Position numbers and translations under genes: made by a program. Shown one piece after another: positions 8,554-35,598 of a DNA stretch of 64,000 nucleotides. This DNA is from Owenia fusiformis. Taxonomy: Eukaryota > Annelida > Polychaeta > Sabellida > Oweniidae. The stretch covers positions 35,758,528-35,822,527 of the forward strand of contig CAIIXF020000012.1 in assembly GCA_903813345.2 (NCBI GenBank). The letters run 5' to 3'. Below the pieces are notes generated by a model. The model was not told the DNA's origin and ran no database searches. It saw only the letters and a list, made by a program, of their open reading frames with translations. Each line of letters opens with the position of its first letter. Positions within the stretch are counted from its first letter, which is position 1.

Positions 8554-11500
8554 ATGAAGGAATACACAACCTTCTGGATTGTTATCATTTTGATGTTCTC
8601 CAGTACAGGTAAGATATGATGAATATATATTTGTGTTAACGTTCACAAACAATGGACTTAGCTTAACAATGATTTCTCTACGTTTACAACAAGGAAGTAA
8701 TGAATTAATAGTTGAATGTTTTAATATGGGATCACTCCAGACGGGAAGGGCGATGTACTTAAAAAATCAAGTTGTCCCTTTACACTTTACAAACATAAAG
8801 TATAATATGTGTAAATGAATCTTTCAGCAACTGGTCAAGGTGATTTAGTCCTGATAGAAGGTCCACAGGACAGGGCTGTGTTATCTTGGCAGAATGCTGA
8901 GTTGACTTGTCATATTGACACTATTGCATCTGGGGCTAATCATGTTGTGCAGTGGATAGGAAACTCTATCAGAACAGGAGCTGGTAGACCAATATCATTT
9001 AATGAAAGGATTACGTTGACTGACATACCAGACAAATTCTCTATAAGTACAGAGAAACCATACAATCTGGTTTTACAGACCACTGATTTGGATGATGCTG
9101 GGAAGTACCCTTGTAATAATGTACTAAAGGGACAACCTATAGGTGACATAGAGCCTCAGTTGGTTGTGCTTGGTAAGTTGGTGTTAATTGATGAACTAGT
9201 CAGAGTTCTGTTTTGAACAAAAAGTCAAGCATTTCTTCTAAATTACAAACTTCTTCATGTTATATGTATTAAAAAATTGACACGTGACTTAACCCACCTG
9301 TGCGAAATGGCACAATTCTGATTTTAAAACAGAATAACCTAAGGGAAACAGACAAACCATGGTATAAGCCTATGTACATGTTCTCCGTTGTGCCGGTGTG
9401 AAAGAAATTATGGTCCCCCAGGGATTATGGTCCCCCCTTTTAAAGGCCCTTTCTGGCCCTGATTGTGTATAAGATAATGAGGGGAAAAGGTGTATTTAGG
9501 TCACCATATAAATCAATTGAGAGTAGGACCATAATTTGATAGGACCTCATACCCTTTTACACCTGCTGTTGTATGCATTCCAGATATTGCGCAAATGCTT
9601 ATTAAAAAAGTCAAAAATCAAATGGAAATAGTGAAAAAATAAACCGACATTTCTGGATCCTGTATCATGCACTATGTCAGGAACTACGAGATCTGCTAAT
9701 GAAATTGATACCATGATGATCACAATTGAGTGGTCTTTATTGTTTTACATTATATTTCCAGAACCCGCATCATGCCCTATGTCAGGAACTACGACATTTA
9801 TTCAGAATGATACCATTACATTTGCGTGGTCTGTCACATATGCAGGAGAGAGATATGATAGCCAGAAACCCACTATTACTTGGTCACTTAATGGCATTGA
9901 TCAAACTGCAATAGCAGACGAGACGATACCAGGGGTCTTCAAGTCAATGTTTTCTAAAGGAGCATCTAGTGTTGATAACCAGAGGGAACTCAATTGCTCA
10001 TTCACAGTACTGAATATCCAACAACATTGTTCCACTAGGCTCAATATACGACGTAGGTTTTCTAATTAAGTATTTTATTTTATATATAATTAAAGTAACT
10101 AAAACAGCTTAGATATAATCTCGAAGAGATCTTTACTGGTACACAATTCTCTTTCTATAGTAGAGGGTCAAAAGAAATAAAAATCTAGCAAATACAATAC
10201 AATATAAAATATTGCAAATTATAACACCATGGACGTGAAGAAATGTGAATTTTCATTAGTGCTTTCTTTTAGATCCAGCACGAAAGCCGACACTCTTTGT
10301 CGATGGCAACAATATTCTAGACCAAGCAATATTACAACGCACAATGGGTGCAAATGTACAACTAAAAGGAGAGTCATTAGCAAACCCTACCCCAACGTTC
10401 ATATGGCAGTTTAGAACAACAGATGATCCCAACTTTGGTACTGAGGAATTTGGAGACACAAAACAAATCAACAACATACAATTCAACCAGGCAGGGGTAT
10501 ACAGATGCTGTGCCAGCAATAACTTGAATGGTTATAGGGAATGTAGTGAATTGACAATCAATGTTGTTGGTATGCATTTTTACTTTGTTTAGCAACATTA
10601 AGTCCACACCTAACAGATGTTTTTCATCGTACCTTAAAAAGTCATGATATTGTCGTCAGCTTTCTTGTCATTACGATTCCAGACAATCTACTGAACTGAT
10701 TTACTTCAAATTTTTACACCCGTTACATGGTAAGAATTTCTAGAACTGATGAACTTTTAGGGCCATCTTATTTTCTTGGTTATCAAGCGAGGTACGATAT
10801 TATCCATCCTGTGCCTTGTCTATACTAAGGTTTCATATGTAATATCCTTTGTAAACATACATTTAGTATGAATGCATTAATACAATGTGTAATATACAGG
10901 GTGTCCCGAAAGTATGCCCCCCCCTAGGCAGACATATACCAGTGTCGTCATAGTATGTGTCATATATCATTTTAAAGCTTATCCAAAGTTACATTGATTT
11001 GCCAAGTATCTTGGTTTAACTCCCAAATGGGAAAAAGTTACAGTCATTTTGAAAGTTAGTGTTTTGTCAAAATAAAGTTCAATTTTACACCACATTACTA
11101 GTCAATGTGTCCCCCTTGGCCAGGTTAACAGCAGCAATTATTTTCAGATATGACCTTAAAAGCCCTTCAAATAGGGGTGTGGAATTTTATAACCCTCTTA
11201 AAACCTGTCAAGGGACTTAAGAAGAGTTTCTACCCTCACCATTCTCTTTTTCCAACTAAATACCCATCCGACCTGAAAAGAATTGCTGCTGCTAAGATTG
11301 CCCGGTAGGACACATTGACTAGTGATTTGGTGTAAAATTGAACTTAATTTTGACCAAACACTAAATTTTGAAATGCCTGTAATTTTTCACATTTGAGAGT
11401 TGAACCATGATACTTGGCGAATCAATGTAACTTTGGATAAGCTTTAAAATGATATATGACACATACATGATGACACTGGTATATGTGGGACACCCTGTAC

Positions 11501-14500
11501 TTTGTAATTAAGTATACAGTTCGCATTTTTGGCAGCAATCGATTTAAATTGAATATGTGAGAATATGAAATTTTCATTTAGCAACAACGACGACACCAAA
11601 GACAACACCAGTGTCTTCTTCAACGACAATTGCAACAACAGTTACGCCTTTCAACTGCTCCAGTCCAGTTATTCCAGCAAGTAAGTATTCTTAATCATCT
11701 AAATTGTTCAGTACCTGCAGATAAAAATGCTGTAGCCTTTTCTGGTTCATTACTCGACTATGTCTTGATCGTAGAAAATCAAATCAAGGTCTCCAAAGAT
11801 CTTCAAAGTCTTAAAAATGTATATCAGTAAGCAACTTGCACAATTCTCTACATATTTTATATCATATAGAAGATTTAGATAATTCATTAAATGAAAAATT
11901 ATTAGAACTAATGAGTCATTTTGTGAATCAACGTTTGAGCCAAATTGATCGGTTTGGCTAAATTTTGCATGCATGTGTTAACTCATCCCTGGCCCATGGG
12001 ATTATAGTTTCTTATATGAGTGATAACATTACTTTGGTAAATTTTAAAATCTTAATGTATTCCTATTCGCGTTGTCTAAAATTGCCGCTAATGTGTTTTT
12101 TTTATAAAACTTTGGCAATCAATTGCATGTCTATGATTGTTTACTAAAGGAATAAATCTATGTATAAAAAAATATATTGTATATCAGAATCACGAATCAA
12201 TGACATGCAACCTAAATATGAATCAGAATTGATTCAGAGACCACACCAAACCAAAAACATTTCAACCAATGGAGGCAATTTGCATTTATCCCAACGAACG
12301 AAGTTCGGTAGGGATATAGTGAAGCCCTCCGTCCGTCCGACAGTCAGTCAGTCCTACCGTCCGTCCGTCCGTCCGGAAAATAACGGGACTTTTTCATTCT
12401 AAACCAAAGAAATTTATATTATTGTTTGAAATTTTGGTAGTATATTCACAACATCTATCTATTTCACATATATTCCGTGTTTTTCATCCTGACCCCCAGG
12501 GGAAAACAGAAATTTTCGCTAATTTTTAGATCTTTCTGAAGCATAGCTTTATTATACTCAAATGAAAGGCAATTAAGAGTAGATTGCAAATATTGTATCT
12601 TTTTCTGATTCGAGCCTCGTAAAATTCAAAATGGCCGTCTAATGTACGATTTTGCAATAATTGTTCGATCCCTTCAAAGTACAGCTATATTATACTCAAA
12701 TTGAAGGAATTTTGGAGTAGATCACAGTTAAATTCATATGGCTGCTTTGCAGGAATTCGCAATTCTAAAATCTAAATTTATCAATTTTAACCAAAGTAAT
12801 GAAAATAATTGATTGGAATTCGGTAATTGATATTTTGTTTGTTGGGATTTGCTACTCTGCGGAGTTGCCGTTATCTAGTTCCTTTATATAATAATTTTAT
12901 TGTTTCGACAGGTAGTTCAACGGGAAATATCGTCGGGGGAGTTCTTGGTTCACTGTTTGCCATTGGCATCATCGCTGCTCTTGCATTCTTTGTCTTCAAG
13001 CTGAACAATGAAGTCAAACAATTGAAGAAAGAAAACTCTCTATTACTATTCCAATATAAAAGAGTATTTTATGTTGTTTTCATAGGTAGTTCAACGGGAA
13101 ATATCGTCGGAGGAGTTCTTGGTTCACTGTTTGCCATTGGCATCATTGCTGTTCTTGCATTCTTCGTCTTCAAGCTGAACAATGAAAACAAAAAATTGAA
13201 AGAAGAAAACTCACTATTACAAAAAGATTCAAATCGGTATAGGTAAAAACTGCAGTCAGTTGAAAAATCACACGATCTTCACCTTATATAATCTAAGCAT
13301 TACTTTCATAAAGCAACCAATTTTATTAAGATAGAATGCTTCACTCCCCATTCCTGAAACAGTACCTCGCCTGATTGAACTGGATGGATATATAAGATAA
13401 ACAATGCAAATTATTCTCAATGCATTATTATATTGTATATGTCGACTGCAAGTATATTTATATCTATTTATCGTCATTCATTCTTTCATTGTTGTTTTCA
13501 TTGTTTTGAAGCACTGGTCCAAGTAGCGAGGTAAATGTTGCCTTTCAACAAAGTCAAAGCGTTCCATATGAAGAAGTTGACTTTAAAACAAACACGTACG
13601 CTCGGCTAAACAAAGATGATGTTAGCGTTCACATTGTAAGTTTAATTGTCAAATAAAATTGCAGTCTCTAATCACATGTTAAAAATGGATTTCAAATTTC
13701 AAATACCACTACTTGTGTGATTTAGCCAAACGCATGTGACAACGAATACCCAAAGGAAGTAATTGAAATCAGGGCCACATTAGATGCTGGTGAATTTGGT
13801 GTTGTAAAACTAGTGAATGTTTCAAATATCACTGTTTGTATGATTTAGCCAAACACATCTGACAAAGAATATCCAATGGAAGTAATTGATATCGGGGCCA
13901 CATTAGGTGCTGGTGAATTTGGTGTTGTAAAACTAGTGAATGTTTCAAATATCACTGTTTGTATGATTCAGGCAAACACATCTGACAAAGAATATCCAAT
14001 GGAAGTAATTGATATCTGGGCCACACTAGGTGCAGGTGAATTTGGTGTTGTAAAACTCGTGAATGTCAATTACAATGTGAATGCCCCATTTATGGCCGCT
14101 GCGAAGATATTAAAGGGTAAGTAAAAATGCTTGGTACCATTTCCGAATGCTTGATTTTGCCACGATTTCGTAGGATGTAGGCAAAATCTTCCCCACCATC
14201 ATTCTGGCGTCTCGTGAGTCATTCGTTCGCAAACAAATATATTTTCCTCAACATATGACGACGTGAACCAATGTGCTAAAAATGTCGTGAAGATTTCGTT
14301 TGCATCTCCTGGAATCATGGAAAATGAAAAACCGTACCTCCGTCCGAGGCTGTGACATTTTATTACCAATTTGAAAACACAGTGTATATAAAGGAATTGT
14401 GTCTCAATATGCATTAAGAATAAAGTTTATGGTCATTTTTCATCTTAATTTGGTATATTATTGCAGACAATGCATCAGATGACGACCACGAGGCCCTGCT

Positions 14501-17500
14501 TTGTAAATTGGATCTGATGAAACAGTTACCAAAACATAGCAGTACGGCATAGTTTTCATGTCCATTTTATTGTTAACTTTGGTATATCTTGTTGCAGATA
14601 ATGCATCTGATGACGACCACCGGGCTCTGCTTCGTGAATTGGATCTGATGAAGCAGTTACCAAAACATAACAATGTGGTAGAACTTCTGGGTTACTCGAA
14701 ATACAATGGTACGATATTTAATGCATACTGTATATATCAATAGCTTCAAGGCAGGTTTCATCCATCCTCTGAACGCAGGGGTTCAGACATCATGTTCTAC
14801 GTTCCTTCATTGTTTCGGAAATAGCGACTTCTGGAGGCATGTGTTCGGAGGGTGGATTTCATAAGAGTTATTGGACATCTGGTAAAGATAAATAATGAGA
14901 TATGTTGATATTGTTGAACAGATTTTTTTTACTTATGTAGTATTAAAATGTTTAAACAAATCAAGGTGAATTTCATGTTGATTATCAATTATATCAATTA
15001 TTTATTTATCCTTAGTAGTAATTGATTATAATCCATTAATATTGTCAATACCATATTCCAATATAATACAGAGTGGTAAAAAAAATGGAAACCCGTACAC
15101 CATTTTCCTCATATATTTGTCATTTTAATAAATAACTCCCTGATATTTTGCACATTTGTACATCATTCAATTTCCTACCAGCCTACTCTATTTCATGACC
15201 ATCAGATTGATAGTCACAATGTTACAGCACTTTACAGAACATGCCCTAGTGGCCAATATTGCGCTGTCGGGTCGCCTGCACTCGCCGTCCAAAATGTCCC
15301 TACCTGTAGGGATATGGCAAGGAAAAAGTGTATGAGAATGACCTCAGGACAATCACAAACCTCAAAAGTGAGATCATCCGTATCATTCAGGCCATACCTG
15401 CTGAGGAATGCATTCGGCCCATTGATAACTGTGCAGGTTTGCCTACAGCGTGATGATGGCCAAACTTGAAGCATGTTATTCAAAGTACTGTAAAATTGTC
15501 ACTATCAGTCTGATGGTCATGAAATTTAGTAGGGTGGTAGGAAATTGAATGATGTACAAATATGTGAAATATCAGGGAGTAAATCTCTAAAATGACAAAG
15601 ATATTAGGAAAATGCAGGGTTTCCCTTTTTTGACCACCCTGTAATACAGCGCTACTTTATATATAACTATTTACTATAAACATTTTTGATCATATCGTAT
15701 CATGTTTATATTTATAGACCAAACTATGATACTCGTTGAGTATCTACCCTTGGGAGACCTGCAAAGCTACTTGAGAGCCAACAAAGCAAAATACATCAGG
15801 TCTGATAAGTTGGACACCAGTAAAGAATTGATACAGTTTGGATATCAGATTGCGTGTGGAATGAACCATATATCATCTTTCAAAGCAAGTGATTTTCTTA
15901 GTTCCTGTATAAATTGATAATTTACGATGGTTTTACTTGGGTTAATGTCTAGTGTTTGAGCATGTATGCTTGATAAAGAGGTACATGCATTGAAAGTTAT
16001 TTACGTCATTATGTCCAACATAGGTGATACCATGCGAAGTTTCAAATGTACGTATCTTATATACTTTGTAATACGTATAGCCCTTCAGAAGCTCCACACA
16101 AATAGGCCTTTATTTATTTCTAGTTTCTGCACCGTGACCTTGCAGCCAGGAATATCTTACTGGGTGCAAATAAAGTTTGCAAGATCTCTGATTTTGGTCT
16201 CTCGAGGGATGTTGCTGAAAGAGATCTGTACAGTAGAACGTCACAAGTAAGTCATTTAGTTGTTTGAATCATTAAACCCGAACTGTTTTTGTATGATTTT
16301 GTGTTTTTCTGTTGTCACACATTCTATACCCAGAATGCATGAAATCCAACATATAATGTCAGATTATACACAATATAATTTCACATCTTATGGCTGTCTT
16401 CCAATAAGATGGATGTCTCCTGAAGCTCTTTTCCATAATATCTACACAACCAAGAAATATGTATGGGCCTATGGTATACTCCTCTGGGAAATACTAACAT
16501 TTGAATATGCTTAATATTGTAGGGCCATCTTCCCATTAGATGGTTGTCTCCTGAAGCTCTTTTCCAGAATATCTACACAACAAAGAATGATGTATGGGCC
16601 TATGGTATAATCCTCTTGGAAATACTAACATTTGAATATGCATCATATTGTAGGGCCGTCTTCCTATTCGATGGATGTCTCCAGAAGCTCTTTTCCACAA
16701 TATCTACACAACCAAGAATGATGTATGGGCCTATTGTATACTGCTTTGGGAAATACTAACATTTTAATATGCATCATATTGTAGGGCCGTCTTCCAATAA
16801 GATGGATGTCTGCTGAAGTTCTGTTCAACAATATCTACACAACCAAGAATGATGTATGGGCCTATGGTATACTCCTCTGGGAAATACTAACATTTGAATA
16901 TGCATCATATTGTAGGGCCGTCTTCCAATTAGATGGATGTCTCCAGAAGCTCTTTTCCACAATATCTACACAACCAAGAATGATGTATGGGCCTTTGGTA
17001 TTCTCCTCTGGGAAATACTAACATTTGAATATGCATCATATTGTAGGGCTGTCTTCCAATAAGATGGATGTCTCCGGAAGCTCTTTTCCACAAAATCTAC
17101 ACAACCAAGAATGATGTATGGGCCTATGGTATACTCCTCTGGGAAATACTTATGTTTGAATATGCATCATATTGTAGGGCCGTCTTCCCATTAGATGGTT
17201 GTCTCCTGAAGCTCTTTTCCACAATATCTACACAACCAAGAATGATGTATGGGCCTATGGTATTACTCATCTCGGAAATACTAACATTTGAATATGCTTC
17301 ATATTGCCGTCATCCCATTAGATGCATGTCTCCTGAAGCTCTTTTCCACAATATCTACACAACCAAGAATGATGTATGGGCCTATGGTATACTCCTCTAG
17401 GAAATACTAACATTTGAATATGCATCATATTGTAGGGCCGTCTTCCTATTCGATGGATGTCTCCAGAAGCTCTTTTCCACAATATCTACACAACCAAGAA

Positions 17501-20500
17501 TGATGTATGGGCCTATGGTATACTCCTCTGGGAAATACTAACATATGAATATGCATCATATTGTAGGGCCGTCTTCCAATTAGATGGATGTCTCCTGAAG
17601 CTCTTTTCCACAATATCTACACAACCAAGAATGATGTATGGGCCTATGGTATACTCCTCTGGGAAATACTAACATATGAATATGCATCATATTGTAGGGC
17701 CGTCTTCCAATTAGATGGATGTCTCCCGAAGCTCTTTTCCACAATATCTACACAACCAAGAATGATGCATGGGCCTATGGTATACTCCTCTGGGAAATAA
17801 TAACATTTGAATATGCATCATATTGTAGGGCCATCTTCCAATAAGATGGATCTCTCCTGAAGCCTTTTTCCACAATATCTACACAACAAAGAATGATGTA
17901 TTGGCCTATGGTATACTCCTCTGGGAAATACTTACATTTGAATATGGTATACTCCTCTGGGAAATATTAACATTTGAATATGCATCATATTGTAGGGCCG
18001 TCTTCCAATTATATGGATGTCTCCTGAAGCTCTTTTCCACAATATCTACACAACCAAGAATGATGTATTGGCCTATGGTATACTCCTTTGGGAAATACTA
18101 ACATTTGAATATGCATCATATTGTAGGGCCGTCTTCCTATTCGATGGATGTCTCCAGAAGCTCTTTTCCACAATATCTACACAACCAAGAATGATGTATG
18201 GGCCTATGGTATACTCCTCTGGGAAATACTAACATATGAATATGCATCATATTGTAGGGCCGTCTTCCAATTAGATGGATGTCTCCTGAAGCTCTTTTCC
18301 ACAATATCTACACAACAAAGAATGATGTATTGGCCTATGGTATACTCCTCTGGGAAATACTTACATTTGAATATGGTATACTCCTCTGGGAAATATTAAC
18401 ATTTGAATATGCATCATATTGTAGGGCCGTCTTCCAATTAGATGGATGTTTCCTGAAGCTCTTTTCCACAATATCTACACAACAAAGAATGATGTATGGG
18501 CCTATGGTATACTCCTCTGGGAAATGTTAACATTTGAATGTACATCATATTGTAGGGCCGTCTTCCCATTAGATGGTTGTCTCCTGAAGTTCTTTTCCAC
18601 AATATCTACACAACAAAGAATGATGTATGGGCCAATGGTATACTCCTCTGGGAAATACTAACATTTGAGTATGCATCATATTGTAGGGCCGTCTTCCAAT
18701 TAGATGGACGTCTCCTGAAGCTCTGTTCCACAATATCTACACAACCAAGAATGATGTATGGGCCTATGGTATACTCCTCTGGGAAATAATAACATTTGAA
18801 TATGCATCATATTGTAGGGCCGTCTTCCAATTAGATGGATGTCTCCTGAAGCTCTTTTCCACAATATCTACACAACCAAGAATGATGTATGGGCCTATGG
18901 TATACTCCTCTGGGAAATAATAACATTTGAATATGCATCATATTGTAGGGCCGTCTTCCAATTAGATGGATGTCTCCTGAAGCTCTGTTCCACAATATCT
19001 ACACAACCAAGAATGATGTGTGGGCCTATGGTATACTCCTCTTGGAAATACTAACATTTGAATATGCATCATATTGTAGGGCCGTCTTCCAATTAGATGG
19101 ATGTCTCCTGAAGCTCTGTTCCACAATATCTACACAACCAAGAATGATGTATGGGCCTATGGTATACTCCTCTGGGAAATACTTACATTTGAATGTACAT
19201 CATATTGTAGGGCCGTCTTCCAATTAGATGGATGCCTCCTGAAGTTCTGTTCCACAATATCTACACAACCAAGAATGATGTATGGGCCTATGGTATACTC
19301 CTCTGGGAAATACTTACATTTGAATGTACATCATATTGTAGGGCCGTCTTCCAATTAGATGGATGCCTCCTGAAGCTCTGTTCCACAATATCTACACAAC
19401 CAAGAATGATGTATGGGCCTATGGTATACTCCTCTGGGAAATACTTACATTTGAATGTACATCATATTGTAGGGCCGTCTTCCAATTAGATGGATGCCTC
19501 CTGAAGTTCTGTTCCACAATATCTACACAACCAAGAATGATGTATGGGCCTATGGTATACTCCTCTGGGAAATACTTACATTTGAATGTACATCATATTG
19601 TAGGGCCGTCTTCCAATTAGATGGATGCCTCCTGAAGTTCTGTTCCACAATATCTACACAACCAAGAATGATGTATGGGCCTATGGTATACTCCTCTTGG
19701 AGATACTTACATTTGAATATGCATCATATTGTAGGGCCGTCTTCCAATCAGATGGATGTCTCCAGAAGCTCTTTTCCACAATATCTACACAACCAAGAAT
19801 GATGTATGGGCCTATGGTATACTGCTCTGGGAAATACTAACATTTGGTAATAGTTTCTCACTTAATATAAGTTTATTAAATTACAATAATTCTGTACAGT
19901 GTAAAATGTTGGAAACAATGCTTAATGAGCATGCCAATGTCTCCATAAAAACCTTTACACTCTCTGAGTGAGCTATAGATTTTGCGCTATCTAATCGAAT
20001 ATGAAATCTAATCTAATATTTTGAAATATGGCATTTTCTGACGTAAACTCAGAACTCTTGCCTGGCAGGACTCTGAAAAGCGTTACAAATTACTGGGAAC
20101 AAACAAAACATTGTATAACAGTGACAATTTTCTAAAAGATTACCGATGCTATCTCTATACTTAGTGGCCAGTTTATTACTTTTTTTAGTGACATAATAGT
20201 AATTGGCATTCTGACAAGTAGATCACATCCCAGATGGGTGCGTCCCACAGCCAAAGAATTGATATTTATATGCTGTTCATATTGTCAATCTTCAACTAGG
20301 TTCAACGCCTTATACTGGGATGAAAGGCAAGGAGGTCATGGAATTTGTGAAAGCTGGGAATGTGATGGACAAGCCACAACATTGTAAAGTAACACTGTAT
20401 GTTTTAATTCGGAGCTCCTAATATTCTTACTCAGATCTGCCTGTGAGAAAGTATCAAAAAAATGAAACCAACACTTGAATAATTATGTAAAATATTAATT

Positions 20501-21227
20501 ACATAGAATAGTACAATAATGTCATTTCTAAGGGCAATATAGTGAGATATTGGACCGAGGGCCGAAGGCCCAAGGTCCAATATTTCACTATATTGCTCGC
20601 AGAAATGACGTTATTAGTATTATTACCACCGTTAACGACCAGGACTGAAACAGCAAGAAAATCTTACGCATTGAATGATATCTAATTTCCCGGGGGAAAT
20701 TGCCGGTCCAGAATATATTCTAGACCGGTCCATATGGACCACCACTATGACGTCACACATTTCTCAGGTCGATATAGTAAAATGAACGCCTTCTAAACTA
20801 GCAATAAAACCCCTAGAACTGGCCCGGCAAGGTGGTAATAATATGTTATTAAAGTATTAGCAAGGCTAGAGTAATTAGTAGATGTCCATATTGATTTTGA
20901 AAAATGAAGCAATGTCGTTTGGAACTGGGAAAAATTCACATTGAATACTGTGGATATGCATTACTGAATTTTTTCATTATTTCTTATTATTGAATATTAT
21001 GTATACGTTAACTATTTTGGTGATTTGTATTAAAAAAATTAATTTGCAGATATAATGTGATGGCAGAATGTTGGAGCCATGATTCGGGTAGACGACCAAC
21101 ATTCTCAGATCTCATGTCCAAAATGGAGAACATCTTACAGGAAGAAACTCCTTATTTGGCAATGAATGACTTTAATGAGGCTCTTTATGCTTATATTAAC
21201 CCAAGGAATCTCAAAGAAAAACTTTAG
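8554..21227 (+). CDS. Ig-domain receptor tyrosine kinase (14 exons, 766 codons)
   Basis: Transmembrane receptor with a cytosolic tyrosine kinase. Exons with GT-AG borders and matching phases: 8554-8608, 8828-9172, 9762-10052, 10273-10569, 11582-11680, 13086-13242, 13512-13635, 13972-14116, 14598-14708, 15718-15884, 16124-16246, 19735-19846, 20300-20396, 21050-21227. Residues 1-18: signal peptide. 20-133: Ig (Cys in LTCHI and GKYPC). 134-230: Ig-like. 231-329: Ig-like ending VYRCCASN, first Cys missing. 330-362: Thr/Ser stalk. About 368-390: membrane span. 415-456: juxtamembrane with VPYEEV. Kinase: GAGEFGVV 476-483, Lys501, Glu518, HRDLAARN 600-607, DFG 620-622, one loop Tyr (633), RWMSPEAL 644-651, DVWAYG 661-666. 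The short tail has YLAM, a YxxM motif. All catalytic residues are present. Subfamily not resolved. Five exons are preceded by tandem partial copies of themselves, annotated separately. Transcript structure is inferred. Confidence 0.85.
9650..9761 (+). repeat. decayed tandem copy of the start of receptor exon 3
   Basis: The run at 9660-9735 (TATCATGCACTATGTCAGG, then GATACCATGATGATCACAATTG) matches the first part of exon 3 (from 9762) at a spacing of 105 bp. The corresponding acceptor AG is lost (TCTGGATCC in place of TTCCAGAACCC), so this copy is unlikely to be spliced. It has the same layout as the other exon duplications in this gene: intron end plus exon start, no donor. Confidence 0.65.
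10895..11499. mobile_element. CAGGGTGTCCC palindromic MITE in receptor intron 4
   Basis: Second copy of the 6.6 kb family. The left end is CAGGGTGTCCCGAAAGTATG at 10897, the right end GGGACACCCTG ends at 11497, and TA flanks both sides (10895-10896, 11498-11499). The right end lacks about 25 bp next to the terminal motif compared with the first copy. Confidence 0.75.
12270..12380. repeat. CCGT microsatellite and flanking dispersed repeat, receptor intron 5
   Basis: Runs of CCGT and CAGT occupy 12328-12376, directly after CCCAACGAACGAAGTTCGG, a word that looks like part of a dispersed repeat. The remaining intron sequence to 12900 shows nothing recognisable. Confidence 0.55.
12912..13242 (+). 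repeat. tandem duplicate of the transmembrane exon (period 174 bp)
   Basis: Two copies start at 12912 and 13086, each directly after an AG and each with the coding run [20 protein letters not shown]. The first copy has no donor. Its 3' part (TATTACTATTCCAATATAAAAG, then a T-rich tract and TTTTCATAG) runs straight into the acceptor of copy 2. The period is 58 codons and the reading frame stays open across the junction, so an mRNA starting at 12912 would encode two membrane spans while use of 13086 gives one. Only copy 2 ends in a donor (GTAAAA at 13243). Confidence 0.85.
13726..14116 (+). repeat. three tandem copies of the kinase glycine-loop exon (period 123 bp)
   Basis: Acceptors lie before 13726, 13849 and 13972. 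Each copy encodes the glycine loop ([27 protein letters not shown]). Only the third continues to the ATP-binding Lys (AAAKILK) and a GTAAGT donor at 14117. Entry at copy 1 meets an in-frame TAG at 13846-13848. Entry at copy 2 reads through in frame into copy 3, adding 41 residues and a second glycine loop. Copy 3 is the expected exon. Confidence 0.85.
14467..14708 (+). repeat. tandem duplicate of the alphaC-helix kinase exon (period 131 bp)
   Basis: Copies start after TTGCAG at 14467 and 14598. Both encode DNASDDDH...[10 protein letters not shown]. Copy 1 diverges after that, hits a TAG and has no donor. Copy 2 continues through [13 protein letters not shown] to a GTACG donor at 14709. The intron piece repeated between them (TTTGGTATAT...TTGCAG) includes the acceptor. 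Confidence 0.8.
15067..15643 (+). mobile_element. mariner-type palindromic MITE with transposase remnant, receptor intron 9
   Basis: The ends CAGAGTGGTAAAAAAAATGG (15069) and TTTTTTGACCACCCTG (ending 15641) are inverted, TA flanks both, and about 150 bp inner arms match. The core (about 15310-15480, plus strand) reads as the C-terminal tail of a mariner/Tc1 transposase: [17 protein letters not shown], then after a frameshift QRDDGQ. This suggests the MITE derives from an autonomous mariner copy. Confidence 0.7.
15885..16123 (+). other. GC-AG intron of the receptor gene
   Basis: The exon ending SSF-K at 15884 is followed by GCAAGT, not GT. GCAAGT is the strong form of the minor GC donor. The acceptor TTTCTAG precedes 16124, and phase 0 on both sides restores the normal kinase order (...ISSFK, then [10 protein letters not shown]). 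No GT donor nearby keeps the frame. Confidence 0.7.
16370..19846 (+). repeat. 26-copy tandem array of the kinase APE/alphaF exon (period 131 bp)
   Basis: The MSPEAL codons begin at 16413, 16544, 16675, 16806, 16937, 17068, 17199, 17326, 17457, 17588, 17719, 17850, 18017, 18148, 18279, 18446, 18577, 18708, 18839, 18970, 19101, 19232, 19363, 19494, 19625 and 19756. A unit is an intron tail (ATATGCATCATATTGTAG) plus the exon encoding [13 protein letters not shown] through WEILTF. The acceptor AG is present in 24 units; unit 1 (16413) and unit 8 (17326) lack it. Only the last has a donor (GTAATAG at 19847). In the others the exon runs directly into the next intron tail. Two units carry a 36 bp internal duplication (before 18017 and 18446). 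Entering an internal copy reads [11 protein letters not shown], shifts frame in the next unit and stops. Confidence 0.95.
20515..20850. mobile_element. MITE-like inverted repeat in receptor intron 13
   Basis: CAATATAGTGAGATATTGGA and its inverse TCCAATATTTCACTATATTG form a hairpin at about 20536-20605. Further in, TATTATTACCACC (20628) pairs with GGTGGTAATAATA (20830). The boundaries and superfamily are uncertain. Confidence 0.45.
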
Positions 21228-22984
21228 AAACTATAAGTTGATTAACTTAAATAACTTCACTCTACTATACCCATTTGGCTTATTAGTAATGATTATGTAT
21301 TTGTTTTTATTTGTCTGTTCCTTATGAATGGTTTATCGGTTGAAAGTTGAAGATGTTAGTAAGGCACTTTCAAAAATATATTAAACAATTCAATTAGACA
21401 AACAAAGTATCTTATGCATTTCTAGGTGTTAGGTATAGTAGAGTGACGTATACATTGTACAGCAGTAGCCGTGACAGGTACGGCAACCTGCCTTTTGTCT
21501 TGACCTAAAATCTGTAAATGGATTAATCCATGACCCTTCAAAAATTCAGGAATTAAACTAAAACTGATTCCGACTTCCAGAATATTTTAATATATCCATT
21601 TCTTGTTAGTTTTCTGCAATGTTAACTTCATGTGTCGGTAAAGCTGCACACTTTGATTGATTATTGTTCGTGTATTTTGATCTTGAAAACTTTGCCAAAA
21701 GGCTGAAGATTCGCACATAATGCAATAATGCATTTACTGTTTATTTTAGTTTACTGTTGATTTTAGTTGAACAATCCGGTATTATGTGTAAGTAATATTT
21801 GTGAATTGTATCTTTGTTCAGGATTTAACGAAGATGCATAGATATTCGATGCTTATTGTTCGTGTTTTCTGTTGATAGATTGAGTCATTTTCATGATTCC
21901 CGGGGATACCCGTGGAATGCACGTGATTCGCCATTGTTATGAAAAGTTGTGAGCATTCTCAAACTTTTTCGTCAATATATAATATTAGTTTTAACTTTAG
22001 CCATACCGGATTTAATTTAAGATTACCTTGACTTTTGGAGAAATTCCAAACAGTTTGATTGCAAAGGAGTTGGGTAAACAAGGCCATTTTAAGCCCCACC
22101 TGATTTTCAAGTTTTCTATTTATTTTATTAATCTATGTGATATATGTGTTTCAAAAATGTATGAAAATTTAGGTCAAAGTCATATTCCCCAGGTCAAGGT
22201 CAAATTTAAAAAATTCATTATTTTCTACCAAAATATACCTTTTTGGTTAAAATATCACAAATATCTGTAGGAATTTAGTCTCATAGAGGTTGGAATTACA
22301 ATATTGTGATGATCCTCCCATACTTAATACAATGTTATGTGATTATTCTGGAGGATTATCACTTTATTTAAATTGCTCTTACCTTTATTTATCAATTATG
22401 TTTGTAAATACTTCATAATTCAGAGGTTTGTTCAGAATTTTCTTATTTCACTACTTCCTTATTCAGCTGTTTGTTGATAGTCTCATAAAAAAAGGTTTAT
22501 TTCTTACACTAGGCACATTATGTCAACTTTATATCAAATGTTGGTTATGTTATTGTTTATTTTAGCAATATTTAATGTTTATTATGTGTGATTGTTTATA
22601 GGGGGCCAAACTAAGCGATTACATTTTATTTTGAGACTATAAAATTTTGCCTAGATTTGCATGAATCATCAGTTCTTCAGTGAGACTTTGAATCACCTGC
22701 AAGTAACAGGAACAGGAACTTTCTCTCTGCATTTTGGAATTGATACACATACATATTGGATATATATCATCTTATTAGATACACTAACCTAGGTGAACGG
22801 GTTGGTAAGGTAATGGAATTACTTTTACTCTAAAACAGAGAAACTGTTTATACCTTTTCCTTGTTGGTGAATCTTCTGATTTCTCTCACTCATTTGGCTT
22901 CATTTACATTAGCATAAATTCATTTAAACCACATTGAGAGTTATTATATCAGGTTCTAAAAGAATATTCAGGACCATTTTGTTT
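21228..22984. other. 3' flank of the receptor gene, no further gene seen
   Basis: ATTAAA near 21380 could act as a weak poly(A) signal for the receptor. The rest is AT-rich unique-looking sequence with no exon I can support. Confidence 0.4.
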
Positions 22985-24298: not shown

Positions 24299-26939
24299 TG
24301 TAACAAATTTTTAATTTTTCAATTTTTTATCTTTGGAGTCCAGTACCATTTTCTAGCAGTTCAGACAGTTTTGACAGCAGGAAAGTGTTTCCCAGTCAAG
24401 GTTGATAGGTGTTATACTTACATTAATGTGTGGAACACTTTAGATGTACAGGGAGTCGTTTTAACTGCTATTTTCTGTGAGATTTATTTTTGTTTTTATC
24501 TGTACATTTTTCTCACTTCCTGCTGACCTACATTCACTTACTCGTTTTTCCTTGCAATTTCACCATAATTAGAGCCAATGATGATTGGTTTTTGTTATAT
24601 TTATCTAGTTTATATCTTAATCTAGCTAATAAATTACAAGATATGTGTTCGTTTTGTGTAAAACAGCAGAAATCGTGATTGCTAGGCAAAGCCATTTATT
24701 TTGCAAAAGTTATTTCCTCATTGCACCATGGTTGTTTATTTTGCACTAGTGATATCCTGCCTGGGATTCTAGTGGACTGACTAGGTATTGCATCAGCCCA
24801 TTAGTCACGTGAAAGCCATGTGCCTAGTACATGCTACATACATGTCTGGGGTATAAAAGCAGAGCACTGATCGCTCCTAGCAGACACGTACACCACTTTT
24901 GAAGAGGAAGGAGCTCCTATGCCAGTGTCTCATCTACAGACGAGGGACTAAGAGGCTGAGAAACTTAGAATATTTACGACATCCCAGAAAGATAGAATAT
25001 TCCCAGCAACTGATGTCAGAAAGATAGAATATTCTCGACAATTGATGTCCAGAAACTTAGAAGATATAACTGATGTCAGAAAGATAGAATATTCTCGACC
25101 AATGATGTCCAGAAACTTAGAATATTTCGATTGCTGATGTCCAGAAACTTAGAATATTTCAACGACTGATGTCTAGAGACTTGGAATATTTCGTGTAACT
25201 GATGTCCAGAAACTTAGAAGATATAACTGATGTCAGAAAGATAGAATATTCTCGACCAATGATGTCCAGAAACTTAGAATATTTCGATTACTGATGTCCA
25301 GAAACTTAGAATATTTCAACGACTGATGTCTAGAAACTTGGAGTATTTCGTGTAACTGATGTCCAGAAACTTAGAAGATATAACTGATGTCAGAAAGATA
25401 GAATATTCTCGACCAATGATGTTCAGAAACTTAGAATATTTCGATTACTGATGTCCAGAAACTTAGAATATTTACGACATCCCAGAAAGATAGAATATTC
25501 TCGACAATTGATGTCCAGAAACTTAGAAGATATAACTGATGTCAGAAAGATAGAATATTCTCGACCAATGATGTCCAGAAACTTAGAATATTTCGATTGC
25601 TGATGTCCAGAAACTTAGAATATTTCAACGACTGATGTCTAGAGACTTGGAATATTTCGTGTAACTGATGTCCAGAAACTTAGAAGATATAACTGATGTC
25701 AGAAAGATAGAATATTCTCGACCAATGATGTCCAGAAACTTAGAATATTTCGATTACTGATGTCCAGAAACTTAGAATATTTCAACGACTGATGTCTAGA
25801 AACTTGGAATATTTCGTGTAACTGATGTCCAGAAACTTAGAAGATATAACTGATGTCAGAAAGATAGAATATTCTCGACCAATGATGTTCAGAAACTTAG
25901 AATATTTCGATTACTGATGTCCAGAAACTTAGAATACTACAACGACTGATGACTAGAAACTTGGAATATTTCGTGTAACTGATGTCTAGAAACTTAGAAG
26001 ATATAACTGATGTCAGAATCTTAGAATATTCTCGACCAATGATGTCCAGAAACTTAGAATATTTCGATTACTGATGTCCAGAAACTTAGAATATTTCAAC
26101 GACTGATGTCTAGAAACTTGGAATATTTCGTGTAACTGATGTCCAGAAACTTAGAAGATATAACTGATGTCAGAAAGATAGAATATTCTCGACCAATGAT
26201 GTCCAGAAACTTAGAATATTTCGATTACTGATGTCCAGAAACTTAGAATATTTCAACGACTGATGTCTAGAAACTTGGAATATTTCGTGTAACTGATGTC
26301 CAGAAACTTAGAAGATATAACTGATGTCAGAATCTTAGAATATTCTCGACCAATAATGTCCAGAAACTTAGAATACTTCGATTACTGATGTCCAGAAACT
26401 TAGAATATTTCAACGACTGATGTCTAGAAACTTGGAATATTTCGTGTAGCTGATGTCCAGAAACTTAGAAGATATAACTGATGTCAGAAAGACATTCTCG
26501 ACCAATGATGTCCAGAAACTTAGAATATTTCGATTACTGATGTCCAGAAACTTAGAATATTTCGATTACTGATGTCTGGAAACTTGGAATATTTCATATA
26601 ACTGATGTCCAGAAACTTAGAAGATATAACTGATGTCAGAAAGATAGCAATTTTCGACAACTGATAGAGAAAGATAGACACTCTTTAATATAAACTTTGA
26701 TATTTCACATAAACAAAGGACTTTCAAGTAGTTTCTCTACAACTTAATTTACACCGATTTATTCTGTATACATTTTTGGGCTGGATAAGCAACAATATAT
26801 GTGTGTTTATTTTATATTCGATGTTGTGTCGCTATATCATCACGTGCATTTAATGTGCACCAAGTATCCCTCGAAGTGACTTAGCCTAATAAAATAAATA
26901 ACAACCATCCACACTACCCAAATTAGGCTAGTTGTTACA
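24299..26939 (+). repeat. 5' LTR (2,641 bp) with internal minisatellite
   Basis: Unusually long. Promoter region 24299-24950, minisatellite 24959-26650, then a 290 bp tail with AATAAA at 26888 about 50 bp before the end. The minisatellite is built of about 32 bp words (GATGTCCAGAAACTTAGAA and variants) organised as a 157 bp higher-order unit. If transcription starts just after the TATA box, nearly the whole minisatellite lies in the R region and is present at both ends of the RNA. Confidence 0.85.
24852..24861 (+). promoter_or_regulatory. TATA box of the LTR promoter
   Basis: TATAAAAGCA preceded by GTCTGGGG. The same box sits at 23600, 30751 and 36152 in the other LTR copies, always 553 bp from the LTR start. 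A GC-richer segment with CACGTGAAA (a CACGTG E-box) lies about 60 bp upstream. Confidence 0.7.
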
Positions 26940-26959
26940 TTGGTGGCAGCGGTGGGATT
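26940..26959 (+). other. primer binding site, tRNA-Leu type (copy 1)
   Basis: TTGGTGGCAGCGGTGGGATT directly follows the LTR. From its second base it is complementary to the 3' end of an animal tRNA-Leu ending AATCCCACCGCTGCCA plus CCA. The identical site follows the middle LTR at 32341 and the miniature element's LTR at 48123. Confidence 0.8.
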
Positions 26960-26987
26960 GTGTTGATTAGTAATACAATATTCGAAT

Positions 26988-29852
26988 ATGGAACAAGGAC
27001 TTGACCTTCCACCTCCTCCAGCTTTTGAGGACCTAACTGAGGGGGACCTGGAGAAAACAGTGTTTTTCAAGTCAGATGATATGGAAATCGATAATCCAAC
27101 AGCCGCTGATGAGACAGCACCAGTGATAGAAGATAATGCGGAACAGGAACAGTCCCCTGGGAAGGTCACCCTGGCAGAAGGAGCCAGACCCAAAATGACT
27201 GAGATTAATACTGAGCAGAGAGGGTTGCCCAGTTTATCGAGTACAGGATATTGGACAGGAGGTGTAATGACAGAACTTGAGACGCCATTTGACCCCATCT
27301 CTCAAAGAAGAGATCCCCAAGGAAGACAAAGATTTCCTTTAACTTCTTCTGTTGTTGGCGGATCAACCAGGAGGTTTAGAGAAGAGGATCCAAGGAGACC
27401 AGACTTAAACGTAATAGAAAGCAAGATTGAGAGAAGGATTGAGATGTTTAGTGAATCTTTGGTGACTCAACAAAGACAGATGCAAAAATTGGCTGAAACC
27501 CAACAGAAGTGTATGAAGCAAGTATTTGAGACTCAAAGTACTCAAGTACACAACATTACCCAGATCGCAGAGCAAGTTCGACGTTGTCAGGATCAACAAA
27601 AGACACAACTACAAGGTATAAAGAGCCAGATAGAAACTATTCAAGAGACAATGGAGAGTTCCATCATTGAGAAAATTCAGAATAGTTTTTCTTGTGAGAT
27701 TGGCACTCAGGAACTCTCGAGAAAGACACCATCACATGATTACACCAGTCATATAGAGCATGTCGCCAGAATGCAGACTCCCTTGATCGAGGGTAGCCAA
27801 CACCAACCTACAATGCCGACATTTACACCCGCCCCATTGGCTTCAGATGTGACAAAGCCTTGGAAACTGCATAGGCAGGATGGAGTTCCATTGAAACCTG
27901 GTACAAAGTTGATGGAGGACAATAGCCAGGAATTCAGCCAGCAACTTGAAGATTTAGAAGGTTGTGGACGAATTGGGAACAAATCAGGGGATGACCTTGC
28001 TGATTTCACCTCTGCCCAAAACTTTTCTCCATACCAGAGGGAAGAGCCGTTTAATCAACCAAAGGATTCACCACAAAAGAGATCTCCTAGTCCAAAGCCA
28101 GCTGGTCCAGTGGACAGATCGGAAAATGATGATAGCCTTCATGGTTCAAATCTATCAGCAGAGCTTGTCAAAATGTGTTCCAAGTTATGTGATAAACTTG
28201 TAAAAGGAACTTCTGAACAATCCAGCAAAAGCAAAATCAAACCTGACGTTTATTCTGGAACTACACCATGGCAAGATTACAGAGCATATTTCGAGATTTG
28301 TGGGGAGGCTAATAAATGGTCGGAAGAGGAGAAGAGGAGGTTCTTAGCAACAAGTCTGAGAGGACCTGCCCAACAAATAGTGCTAGAGATGGGACATGAT
28401 TATAGCTACGATCAACTCCTCCTAGCCCTGGAGAAGCGTTTTGGCCCTGGGGGTAAAGCTGACGTCTACGAGGCAGAGTTAATGGGCCGTATACGGAAAC
28501 CAAAGGAGACTTTGCAAACTTTGGGTCAAGATATTAGACGCCTTACCTCTTTAGCATACCCTGAAATGAGTAAGACTGCCCAAGACCGTCTAGCTCGACG
28601 TAGCTTTGAACAAGCCATATTGGAAGATGAAATTCGAAGGGCTATACATACAAAAGAGTGCAATACCCTTGACAAGGCGATTGAAGTTGCTCTCAAAGAA
28701 GAGTCATACATAGAATCTGAGAAAATCAGAAAAGGCCAAAAACCGAACGCCATCGATTCCGAGGAAGAGTACTGCAACTCTGTAAGTACTCCTGATAATA
28801 AGGAAGATGTGTTCCAGAAGATGGCTCAAATGATAGAACAAATGCAACAAGCTGTGCAAGAAACTTGCACCAAGAACCTGGAGAAAATGGTTGACCTGAT
28901 GAAGTTAACCAGATTGGAATCTACAAATAGGGAGAACATGAACAATAGACCTAAATGTTTCTATTGTCACAAGCCTGGTCACCGGATAGCTGATTGTTAT
29001 TCAAGGAAGCGTGCCGAAGAGCGAGATAAAACAGCACAGGAGAGATCTAGCCAGATTGCTACCATTGAATTTCTTTCTCTGCAGGGGAATGATGTTCAGT
29101 CTCCCAAGGACACTCAGAAGATAGTGGCACATGGTACAGTTTGCGACACCAATGTTTCATTTTTAGTTGACTCTGGAGCAGCTAGTACTATCATGAGTTC
29201 AAAGGTCTACCAGAATATACCTAAACACAGAAGACCCAAGCTTGAGCCGCCTAAGAGAGTTATCTTGCAAGCTGGTGGACAACCACTGCAAATGAAAGGT
29301 GTTTCATGTCTTGAGGTTAACATTGATGGTCATACAGAGAACATAGAGGTTGTTGTGGCCGACATTGGCTTTGACGGAATCTTAGGCACAGATTACTTAG
29401 CTGCCTCGGGAGCTGTGTTAAACTATCGTCAGTGTAAAATGGCATTTGAAGAGAATCCTGGAAGTTTTTATGACCGCCCTATAGACTCAGGAGTGCCTAA
29501 AGATCGAGCGAGTGAAGTCAAAGACAGAGAGGTAGATCAACGTGAAAGATTCGGGACGAGAGACAGATCGACACCTCCCAAGAGATCATCTAGGAGGACA
29601 GCTGCGGATCTAGCTGGTTTTTCCCGCTTCAGAGGACATAGATGTGCCAGGAACAAAAGATGTTGTAAAGTGTCTGGGCTAAGTGAAGACTACAGCCTTA
29701 GAATTGACAGTACGGATGAGGAACCCAGAACTTACTCAGCTAAGGCACCTCTATCCAAAATTTATAGAACAAGACATTTGAGGACTCAACCTGAGCGTGA
29801 CTTGGATGGCAACTGGAGGGATCATTGTTATTCCCATAGAGTGAAGCCCTAA
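26988..29852 (+). CDS. gag-protease polyprotein, LTR element copy 1 (954 aa)
   Basis: Structural protein and processing protease of the retrotransposon. Residues 1-130 are acidic and disordered. About 140-235 is Gln/Glu-rich and probably coiled coil. About 415-590 is a retrotransposon gag (capsid) domain starting DVYSGTTPWQDY (from residue 420). Residues 657-670 form a CCHC zinc knuckle (CFYCHKPGHRIADC) for RNA binding. 728-730 is the aspartic protease DSG in FLVDSGAAS, with a second protease block ILGTDYLAA near 805. The Arg/Lys-rich last 110 residues match nothing I know and end at a stop, with no polymerase following. The start is the first ATG after the primer site, 48 bp from the LTR. 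Confidence 0.9.
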   Translation: MEQGLDLPPPPAFEDLTEGDLEKTVFFKSDDMEIDNPTAADETAPVIEDNAEQEQSPGKVTLAEGARPKMTEINTEQRGLPSLSSTGYWTGGVMTELETPFDPISQRRDPQGRQRFPLTSSVVGGSTRRFREEDPRRPDLNVIESKIERRIEMFSESLVTQQRQMQKLAETQQKCMKQVFETQSTQVHNITQIAEQVRRCQDQQKTQLQGIKSQIETIQETMESSIIEKIQNSFSCEIGTQELSRKTPSHDYTSHIEHVARMQTPLIEGSQHQPTMPTFTPAPLASDVTKPWKLHRQDGVPLKPGTKLMEDNSQEFSQQLEDLEGCGRIGNKSGDDLADFTSAQNFSPYQREEPFNQPKDSPQKRSPSPKPAGPVDRSENDDSLHGSNLSAELVKMCSKLCDKLVKGTSEQSSKSKIKPDVYSGTTPWQDYRAYFEICGEANKWSEEEKRRFLATSLRGPAQQIVLEMGHDYSYDQLLLALEKRFGPGGKADVYEAELMGRIRKPKETLQTLGQDIRRLTSLAYPEMSKTAQDRLARRSFEQAILEDEIRRAIHTKECNTLDKAIEVALKEESYIESEKIRKGQKPNAIDSEEEYCNSVSTPDNKEDVFQKMAQMIEQMQQAVQETCTKNLEKMVDLMKLTRLESTNRENMNNRPKCFYCHKPGHRIADCYSRKRAEERDKTAQERSSQIATIEFLSLQGNDVQSPKDTQKIVAHGTVCDTNVSFLVDSGAASTIMSSKVYQNIPKHRRPKLEPPKRVILQAGGQPLQMKGVSCLEVNIDGHTENIEVVVADIGFDGILGTDYLAASGAVLNYRQCKMAFEENPGSFYDRPIDSGVPKDRASEVKDREVDQRERFGTRDRSTPPKRSSRRTAADLAGFSRFRGHRCARNKRCCKVSGLSEDYSLRIDSTDEEPRTYSAKAPLSKIYRTRHLRTQPERDLDGNWRDHCYSHRVKP

Positions 29853-30197
29853 CCAGAGAGTTGAGCCTTGAACGAGACATTTAGCATGAGTATAATTTTG
29901 TATTCATACTTAACAATTAGCTGAGAGTTAAAAACTGAAAGGTTTTTGTACATAGTAGTTAGACATTTGTATTAAGTAGGTAGTTAGATATTTAGTGTTA
30001 AGTTTTGAGAAACCAGCGTTTAATGAGTTTAGGTTTCCGAACTTGCTTTGTGCATTGTAGTTGCAGCTAGTTGACCCTGGGGTTAAGTATATTTGGCAGG
30101 TTATATTTTTAGAAAATATCTAGTTAGGAAAAATTTGTTATCTTTTTATGTTCTTAGGCTTGGTGTTGTAAACACCAAAATCATTGGATGGGAGGAG

Positions 30198-32340
30198 TGT
30201 AACAAATTTTTAATTTTTCAATTTTTTATCTTTGGAGTCCAGTACCATTTTCTAGCAGTTCAGACAGTTTTGACAGCAGGAAAGTGTTTCCCAGTCAAGG
30301 TTGATAGGTGTTATACTTACATTAATGTGTGGAACACTTTAGATGTACAGGGAGTCGTTTTAACTGCTATTTTCTGTGAGATTTATTTTTGTTTTTATCT
30401 GTACATTTTTCTCACTTCCTGCTGACCTACATTCACTTACTCGTTTTTCCTTGCAATTTCACCATAATTAGAGCCAATGATGATTGGTTTTTGTTATATT
30501 TATCTAGTTTATATCTTAATCTAGCTAATAAATTACAAGATATGTGTTCGTTTTGTGTAAAACAGCAGAAATCGTGATTGCTAGGCAAAGCCATTTATTT
30601 TGCAAAAGTTATTTCCTCATTGCACCATGGTTGTTTATTTTGCACTAGTGATATCCTGCCTGGGATTCTAGTGGACTGACTAGGTATTGCATCAGCCCAT
30701 TAGTCACGTGAAAGCCATGTGCCTAGTACATGCTACATACATGTCTGGGGTATAAAAGCAGAGCACTGATCGCTCCTAGCAGACACGTACACCACTTTTG
30801 AAGAGGAAGGAGCTCCTATGCCAGTGTCTCATCTACAGACGAGGGACTAAGAGGCTGAGAAACTTAGAATATTTACGACATCCCAGAAAGATAGAATATT
30901 CCCAGCAACTGATGTCAGAAAGATAGAATATTCTCGACAATTGATGTCCAGAAACTTAGAAGATATAACTGATGTCAGAAAGATAGAATATTCTCGACCA
31001 ATGATGTCCAGAAACTTAGAATATTTCGATTGCTGATGTCCAGAAACTTAGAATATTTCAATGACTGATGTCTAGAGACTTGGAATATTTCGTGTAACTG
31101 ATGTCCAGAAACTTAGAAGATATAACTGATGTCAGAAAGATAGAATATTCTCAACCAATGATGTCCAGAAACTTAGAATATTTCGATTACTGATGTCCAG
31201 AAACTTAGAATATTTCAACGACTGATGTCTAGAAACTTGGAGTATTTCGTGTAACTGATGTCCAGAAACTTAGAAGATATAACTGATGTCAGAAAGATAG
31301 AATATTCTCGACCAATGATGTTCAGAAACTTAGAATATTTCGATTACTGATGTCCAGAAACTTAGAATATTTACGACATCCCAGAAAGATAGAATATTCT
31401 CGACAATTGATGTCCAGAAACTTAGAAGATATAACTGATGTCAGAAAGATAGAATATTCTCGACCAATGATGTCCAGAAACTTAGAATATTTCGATTGCT
31501 GATGTCCAGAAACTTAGAATATTTCAACGACTGATGTCTAGAGACTTGGAATATTTCGTGTAACTGATGTCCAGAAACTTAGAAGATATAACTGATGTCA
31601 GAAAGATAGAATATTCTCGACCAATGATGTCCAGAAACTTAGAATATTTCGATTACTGATGTCCAGAAACTTAGAATATTTCAACGACTGATGTCTAGAA
31701 ACTTGGAATATTTCGTGTAACTGATGTCCAGAAACTTAGAAGATATAACTGATGTCAGAAAGATAGAATATTCTCGACCAATGATGTTCAGAAACTTAGA
31801 ATATTTCGATTACTGATGTCCAGAAACTTAGAATACTACAACGACTGATGACTAGAAACTTGGAATATTTCGTGTAACTGATGTCTAGAAACTTAGAAGA
31901 TATAACTGATGTCAGAAAGATAGAATATTCTCGACCAATGATGTCCAGAAACTTAGAATATTTCGATTACTGATGTCTGGAAACTTGGAATATTTCATAT
32001 AACTGATGTCCAGAAACTTAGAAGATATAACTGATGTCAGAAAGATAGCAATTTTCGACAACTGATAGAGAAAGATAGACACTCTTTAATATAAACTTTG
32101 ATATTTCACATAAACAAAGGACTTTCAAGTAGTTTCTCTACAACTTAATTTACACCGATTTATTCTGTATACATTTTTGGGCTGGATAAGCAACAATATA
32201 TGTGTGTTTATTTTATATTCGATGTTGTGTCGCTATATCATCACGTGCATTTAATGTGCACCAAGTATCCCTCGAAGTGACTTAGCCTAATAAAATAAAT
32301 AACAACCATCCACACTACCCAAATTAGGCTAGTTGTTACA
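30198..32340 (+). repeat. middle LTR shared by both units (2,143 bp)
   Basis: Same ends as the outer LTRs but about 500 bp shorter, because its minisatellite (30858-32050) has fewer 157 bp units. Single-base variants such as CAATGACTG (31060) and CTCAACCAATG (31151) are shared with the right LTR and absent from the left one. It serves as 3' LTR of unit 1 and 5' LTR of unit 2. Confidence 0.85.
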
Positions 32341-32388
32341 TTGGTGGCAGCGGTGGGATTGTGTTGATTAGTAATACAATATTCGAAT

Positions 32389-35253: not shown

Positions 35254-35598
35254 CCAGAGAGTTGAGCCTTGAACGAGACATTTAGCATGAGTATAATTTT
35301 GTATTCATACTTAACAATTAGCTGAGAGTTAAAAACTGAAAGGTTTTTGTACATAGTAGTTAGACATTTGTATTAAGTAGGTAGTTAGATATTTAGTGTT
35401 AAGTTTTGAGAAACCAGCGTTTAATGAGTTTAGGTTTCCGAACTTGCTTTGTGCATTGTAGTTGCAGCTAGTTGACCCTGGGGTTAAGTATATTTGGCAG
35501 GTTATATTTTTAGAAAATATCTAGTTAGGAAAAATTTGTTATCTTTTTATGTTCTTAGGCTTGGTGTTGTAAACACCAAAATCATTGGATGGGAGGAG

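Follow-up and report, generated by a model that had tools for sequence, protein, structure and literature searches.

What becomes, in splicing, of an exon that stands in 26 tandem copies when only the last of them has a donor? The question is raised by a 64,000-nucleotide stretch of the Owenia fusiformis genome (contig CAIIXF020000012.1, positions 35,758,528 to 35,822,527; hereafter the window, numbered from its first letter), in which a receptor tyrosine kinase gene lies on the forward strand at 8554-21228 and carries the array in front of its exon 12. The first-pass annotation of this DNA had named three possible outcomes, namely catalytically dead receptor forms, targets of nonsense-mediated decay of the messenger RNA (mRNA), or an array that is ignored. 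Judged by the weak constraint on the copies and the constraint kept by the gene, 'ignored in the main' fits best of the three. We consider it likely, with a probability of roughly 0.8, that the array is a minisatellite lying over a splice site, its copies being pseudo-exons that splicing usually bypasses.

An array of 26 exon 12 copies with a single donor

Reading of 15400-21000 together with a scripted listing of the units confirmed 26 copies of exon 12 in tandem, an AG acceptor in 24 of the 26 units, and a donor (gtaata) solely after copy 26 (19735-19846, forward strand), which is the real exon 12 and the sole copy with both acceptor and donor. The start of the array had been placed at 16370; copy 1 begins instead at 16392, and copy 26 ends at 19846. 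The 25 acceptor-side copies occupy 16392-19734 on the same strand, each as a 112-nucleotide exon copy plus linker, with a step of 131 base pairs (bp) in 22 of the 25 cases, 127 bp in one and 167 bp in two, these two units having an extra 36 bp. Lacking a donor, each of the 25 copies runs at its end into a 19-nucleotide linker, mostly aatatgcatcatattgtag. The earlier description of 25 upstream units, each of intron tail, acceptor and exon, holds for the copy number and fails for copy 1, which is preceded by the native intron tail rather than by a linker. This native part of intron 11 ahead of the array (16247-16391, forward strand, 145 nucleotides) has lost its AG, reading ttAT where the paralogues that we call A and B read ttAG. 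Copy 1 is therefore one of the two exceptions among the acceptors, with AT, and the other is copy 8, whose AG has gone through a small deletion at the copy 7/8 junction. Measured from exon 11, the intron is 3,488 nucleotides long to the last exon 12 copy and 145 to the first.

Tandem Repeats Finder reported the array in overlapping rows with scores of 2639, 3642 and 2621 (threshold 50), and the window's repeat listing also includes a 429-bp higher-order repeat. Most of the copies differ from one another. The branch point consensus resembles TACTAAC, and this heptamer stands at the end of 13 of the 25 upstream units, with five close variants of it in the other 12, about 25 nucleotides before the next AG. 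These unit ends may serve as putative branch points, and with one at such a distance each acceptor would be complete in itself.

Exon 12 is entered in phase 0 and left in phase 1. It had been claimed that splicing to any internal copy gives a frameshift and a stop directly after EYASYC. When the frame is read on from each internal copy (25, of which 23 have AG), a stop does come before the donor in all 25 cases, though not directly after that peptide; the stop follows after 31-117 codons, and after 77-92 in 17 of the 25.

Coding constraint on the copies and on their host genes

Counting as a variant each distinct difference from the unit consensus, once per array, which handles the relatedness among copies only in part, we found 19 silent, 32 changing and 1 stop variant in the window's 25 internal copies. 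The corresponding figures are 9, 12 and 1 for the 13 internal copies of paralogue A and 6, 5 and 0 for the two of a third paralogue, C, as against 35 silent, 13 changing and no stop variants in ten real exons 12. Real exons and internal copies differ in this respect in the window (Fisher test, p = 3e-4) and also in paralogue A (p = 0.016).

The host genes themselves have remained under constraint. Between the window gene and paralogue A, exons 8-14 show a nonsynonymous divergence (dN) of 0.0285 and a synonymous divergence (dS) of 0.0945, a ratio of 0.30 (Fisher p = 6e-4), and dN/dS is 0.15 for the window gene against paralogue C and 0.13 against paralogue B (exons 9-14). Among the earlier exons, the comparison with A gives ratios of 0.52 for exon 3, 0.33 for exon 4 and 0.28 for exon 6, exon 7 being without silent change. 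In paralogue D (L012), which has no array over an exon, the last exon contains a frameshift.

Since the constraint on the copies is mostly lost and that on the real exons is kept, the gene presumably still yields intact mRNA. The array would thus be spliced past in enough transcripts, and the constraint on the array-bearing genes is the best, if indirect, evidence for this. Six variants are common to the internal copies of the window gene and of paralogue A and occur in none of the ten real exons. A multi-copy array was hence probably present in the ancestor of these two genes, the coding exons having been constrained since; this suggests that the array predates their split.

Partial exon copies elsewhere in the gene and its family

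Self-comparison and exon mapping show that exon 12 is not the only exon affected. Upstream partial copies, each consisting of an intron tail and the 5' part of the exon without a donor, also accompany exons 3, 6, 8 and 9 of the window gene, all on the forward strand. The exon 3 copy (9657-9714) is decayed, with its AG lost and its start placed by alignment. The exon 6 copy (12912-13046) keeps its AG and reads through in frame; both exon 6 acceptors read AGGT. Two copies of exon 8, which encodes the glycine loop, lie at 13726-13943 as 123-bp units with AG kept, and one copy of exon 9, likewise with AG, at 14467-14541. In total 27 of 30 upstream acceptors are preserved in this gene (23/25 for exon 12, 1/1 for exon 9, 2/2 for exon 8, 1/1 for exon 6 and 0/1 for exon 3), and all of its arrays are acceptor-side. 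Use of the upstream acceptor of exon 6 would give an open read-through (12912-13242) that lengthens the protein by 58 codons and includes a second transmembrane-like segment. The second exon 8 copy is in frame into the real exon (13849-14116), so that its use would double the glycine loop; the real exon 8 acceptor ends in CAG and its two upstream copies in TAG.

The gene that hosts these copies has 14 exons, whose junctions are sequence predictions: 8554-8608, 8828-9172, 9762-10052, 10273-10569 and 11582-11680 (exons 1-5), 13086-13242, 13512-13635, 13972-14116, 14598-14708 and 15718-15884 (exons 6-10), and 16124-16246, 19735-19846, 20300-20396 and 21050-21228 (exons 11-14). Together they encode 766 codons and a stop, with the frame open across every predicted junction. 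The protein matches the Pfam families PF07714 (3.5e-84) and Ig_3 (9.4e-11), contains SPE in its translation, and has a transmembrane segment, spotted by eye, that is encoded by exon 6. In comparisons of its kinase with solved structures, FGFR and RET chains had the top per-domain scores; an EGFR chain came first in the ranking because that chain contains two kinase copies. A suspected frameshift was dismissed when comparison of the paralogues put the exon 13 donor at 20396, with which the frame closes up. Exon 10 has a GC donor (15885-15886), as it does in paralogues A, B, C and D. Elsewhere in the window, within 24984-37967, there are three occurrences of a 157-bp minisatellite (24984, 30883 and 36284) and two of a 25-bp repeat (29955 and 35356), a pattern that would fit tandem duplication of a whole block of 5-6 kb.

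Across the paralogues the number of exon 12 copies is 26, 14, 3 or 1. In paralogue A (L009) the five exons duplicated are those of the window gene, and exon 12 is present in 14 units, among which units 2-5 equal units 6-9 without a single difference; these identical units and the 429-bp higher-order repeat of the window point to turnover typical of tandem repeats. Paralogue B (L017+L010+L018) lies between A and the window gene. Its exon 12 is single, but its exon 10 is preceded by 66 acceptor-side copies of the first part of that exon (L017 601-6961). Of these 66, 38 have AG at the corresponding position and 28 lack it there, two of the 28 having an AG displaced by one base, and the A of this AG is the most variable of the 100 columns in the array (0.42). 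The first-pass annotation had cautioned that the preserved acceptors might reflect nothing more than copy similarity; this array supports that view, and selection to keep AG finds no support in it. Selection to lose AG need not be invoked either, as one amplified mutation could give the same pattern. On the donor side, paralogue B has copies after exon 11, 14 of them listed, with GT kept in 12, and at a further locus (L016) exon 9 is copied in the same manner. Paralogue C (L019+L011+L020) shows three exon 12 units, four upstream copies of exon 9 and two of exon 3; exons 3 and 4 have additional copies ahead of exon 2, on the reverse strand at 544-1432 of its joined stretch.

The native tail before the first or only exon 12 copy is common to A and B (..cacatcttAG) and the window gene (..cacatcttAT). 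Paralogue C has a different native tail and the same 19-nucleotide linker between its units, so that the units either stem from an old array that has shrunk in B and D or were exchanged between paralogues. An array that shrank through exchange between its first and last copies would leave a normal exon in place, with no trace of the event. Locus E retains a unit end and linker before its one exon 12. No array lies over a mapped exon at loci D, F, H and J, coverage of the last three being limited to 8 kb each. Locus N has two arrays, both within an intron; K, M and N were mapped and repeat-scanned and stand outside the classification of arrays against exons.

That classification, over ten family loci, lists 27 arrays. 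Sixteen overlap an exon, each of them crossing one splice site and no more; by our judgement of the junctions they represent nine independent events, seven acceptor-side and two donor-side. We do not claim an acceptor-side bias from so few events, nor a hot spot at exon ends, for which the 9 of 20 arrays judged independent that overlap an exon, with about 5 expected at random, make a weak case. One of the 11 intronic arrays (paralogue B 12282-12452) is built of displaced exon 11 copies. A search with the exon 12 peptide found arrays at 3 of 41 loci (counted from 84 rows). Visual inspection of the listed matches of PF07714, PF00005, PF00209 and PF00063, for which respectively 133 of 752, 19 of 194, 82 of 424 and 65 of 210 candidates were scored, revealed no further series of a single exon spaced about 100 bp apart; the window array itself is absent from the PF07714 rows listed.

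Probable splicing past the array, rival readings and known systems

The 131-bp unit holds the last 19 nucleotides of an intron, with the AG, and the whole exon to its last base without the donor. These observations are consistent with a model in which unequal exchange or slippage would have enlarged the array. The internal copies would then be pseudo-exons under little or no coding constraint. The spliceosome would join exon 11 to the donor-bearing copy 26, giving normal mRNA and leaving the other 25 copies as intron, and the same process may have acted at other splice sites of the family, on the acceptor or the donor side. Exon definition is the likely, though unproven, reason for the bypass. 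A transcriptome study found that long introns tend to pair the sites nearest across the exon and short introns those nearest across the intron, and that the preference for upstream 3' sites is reduced in long introns (PMC9225289).

Several points weigh against this explanation. Carranza et al. report that the upstream 3' site is favoured in short introns (PMC9225289); with a native intron of 145 nucleotides and an intact upstream AG in paralogue A, it is not assured that the last acceptor wins. The silent share of variants in the copies also somewhat exceeds the neutral expectation of about 22-25% (19/52 in the window against 0.236, p = 0.034; 9/22 in A, p = 0.075), an excess that may come from exchange with real exons or from weak constraint. 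The six variants shared by the window gene and A could also reflect gene conversion between the arrays, and the crossing of exactly one splice site is partly a matter of geometry, since most units are shorter than the exon or about as long.

The array could instead act as a splicing rheostat, in which near-equal acceptors compete, internal use leads by way of a stop to degradation, and array length sets receptor output. This would be in keeping with the near-identical linkers and the intact acceptors that follow them in 24 of 26 units, and with the stop that precedes the donor from every one of the 25 internal starts, by more than 55 nucleotides in 23. The gene is nevertheless still constrained, acceptors decay in paralogue B, and the amphioxus 'mirages' discussed below are reported to leave splicing undisturbed (PMC3087553; PMC3902484). 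We regard the rheostat as unlikely. Arrays working as batteries of decoy acceptors, with their length setting the productive share of mRNA as a heritable, fast-changing dial for each paralogue, seem to us quite unlikely. If the potato RdRp gene, which gained an intron through duplication over an intron-exon boundary (PMC4974935), were the precedent, a copy here might be recruiting a cryptic donor to become a new exon, and mirages have been proposed as such a route (PMC3087553); with the native donor only at the last copy (cryptic donors inside the copies were left unscored), intron gain in progress is most improbable. Tandem arrays being prone to assembly errors, misassembly has to be considered as well; the exact number of copies is uncertain, and paralogue A contains identical blocks of units. 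Most window copies, however, differ mutually, and the pattern recurs at several loci and exons with different junctions, which makes an artefact very hard to credit.

It is also highly improbable that the internal copies are functional alternative exons, be it as coding variants or as a deliberately truncated receptor. The frame is open through most copies when each is read singly, but 25 of the 26 are without a donor, and the copies have changing variants and stops at positions where the ten real exons preserve the residue. In mutually exclusive exon arrays of the myosin heavy chain type, many copies of one exon stand in a row. Each copy there has an acceptor, a donor and an intact segment, whereas the kinase array has one donor for 26 copies and weakened constraint. 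The same genome offers a direct contrast in a muscle-type myosin heavy chain gene (C9, L039, 37985500-37994999), where 12 copies of one exon lie in about 8 kb. All 12 copies, one of them more divergent, are open and recognisable, as judged on the TYSGLFC..NPYKRLPIY.. segment rather than on splice sites. They are probably a large set of mutually exclusive exons, and the kinase array is unlike this probably used type.

The array provides a natural experiment on splice-site choice, in which 24 near-identical acceptors compete for one partner in a gene that must still yield a functional protein, with a counterpart in paralogue B where about a dozen near-identical donors do so. It also serves as a warning for annotation, since automatic gene prediction could mistake such arrays for multiplied exons.

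Among known systems, the polyubiquitin gene UBC resembles the array in being a tandem array with one splice site per unit. Its units are coding, however, and its AGGT site can act as donor or acceptor (PMC10809524), whereas the exon 12 junctions read GTAG/GGCC in most units, or nearly so, and AGGT does not stand at each junction as in a dual-specific array. The potato RdRp case likewise involves a duplicated 3' end of an intron with the 5' part of an exon; there, one duplication gave a new intron with RNA support (PMC4974935), and here dozens of copies without native donor are seen at the level of DNA. The window array fits best with the mirages of amphioxus, tandem duplications over exon-intron boundaries with acceptor-side and donor-side cases in the globins BflGb6 and BflGb9 (PMC3087553). 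The BflGb6 mirage has 6 and 3 units in two haplotypes, reverse-transcription PCR of the globins suggests undisturbed splicing, and somatic instability at Adh3 is cited in the same paper (PMC3087553); mirages at Adh and troponin C are listed elsewhere, where the PGBD5 repeats are likened to them (PMC3902484). Units that span an exon-intron boundary occur here at exon 12 and also at exons 3, 6, 8 and 9, many units keep AG or GT in both animals, and copy number varies in both, here among paralogues. Either exon boundary can be affected within the family, as paralogue B (exon 11) and L016 (exon 9) show for the donor side, and the cluster shows concerted evolution in units 2-5 and 6-9 of A and in the higher-order repeats of the window. 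Our literature search, judged mostly on titles and abstract openings, recognised no animal case beyond lancelets; with an annelid host, splice-site repeats are not confined to lancelets. The genome also has three matches above cut-off to Eryth_link_C, a domain of annelid haemoglobin linkers. What is new here, by comparison with the mirages, is that they lie in receptor kinases of an annelid rather than a lancelet genome, reach higher copy numbers (26 and 66), and affect several exons per gene, five of them in one gene.

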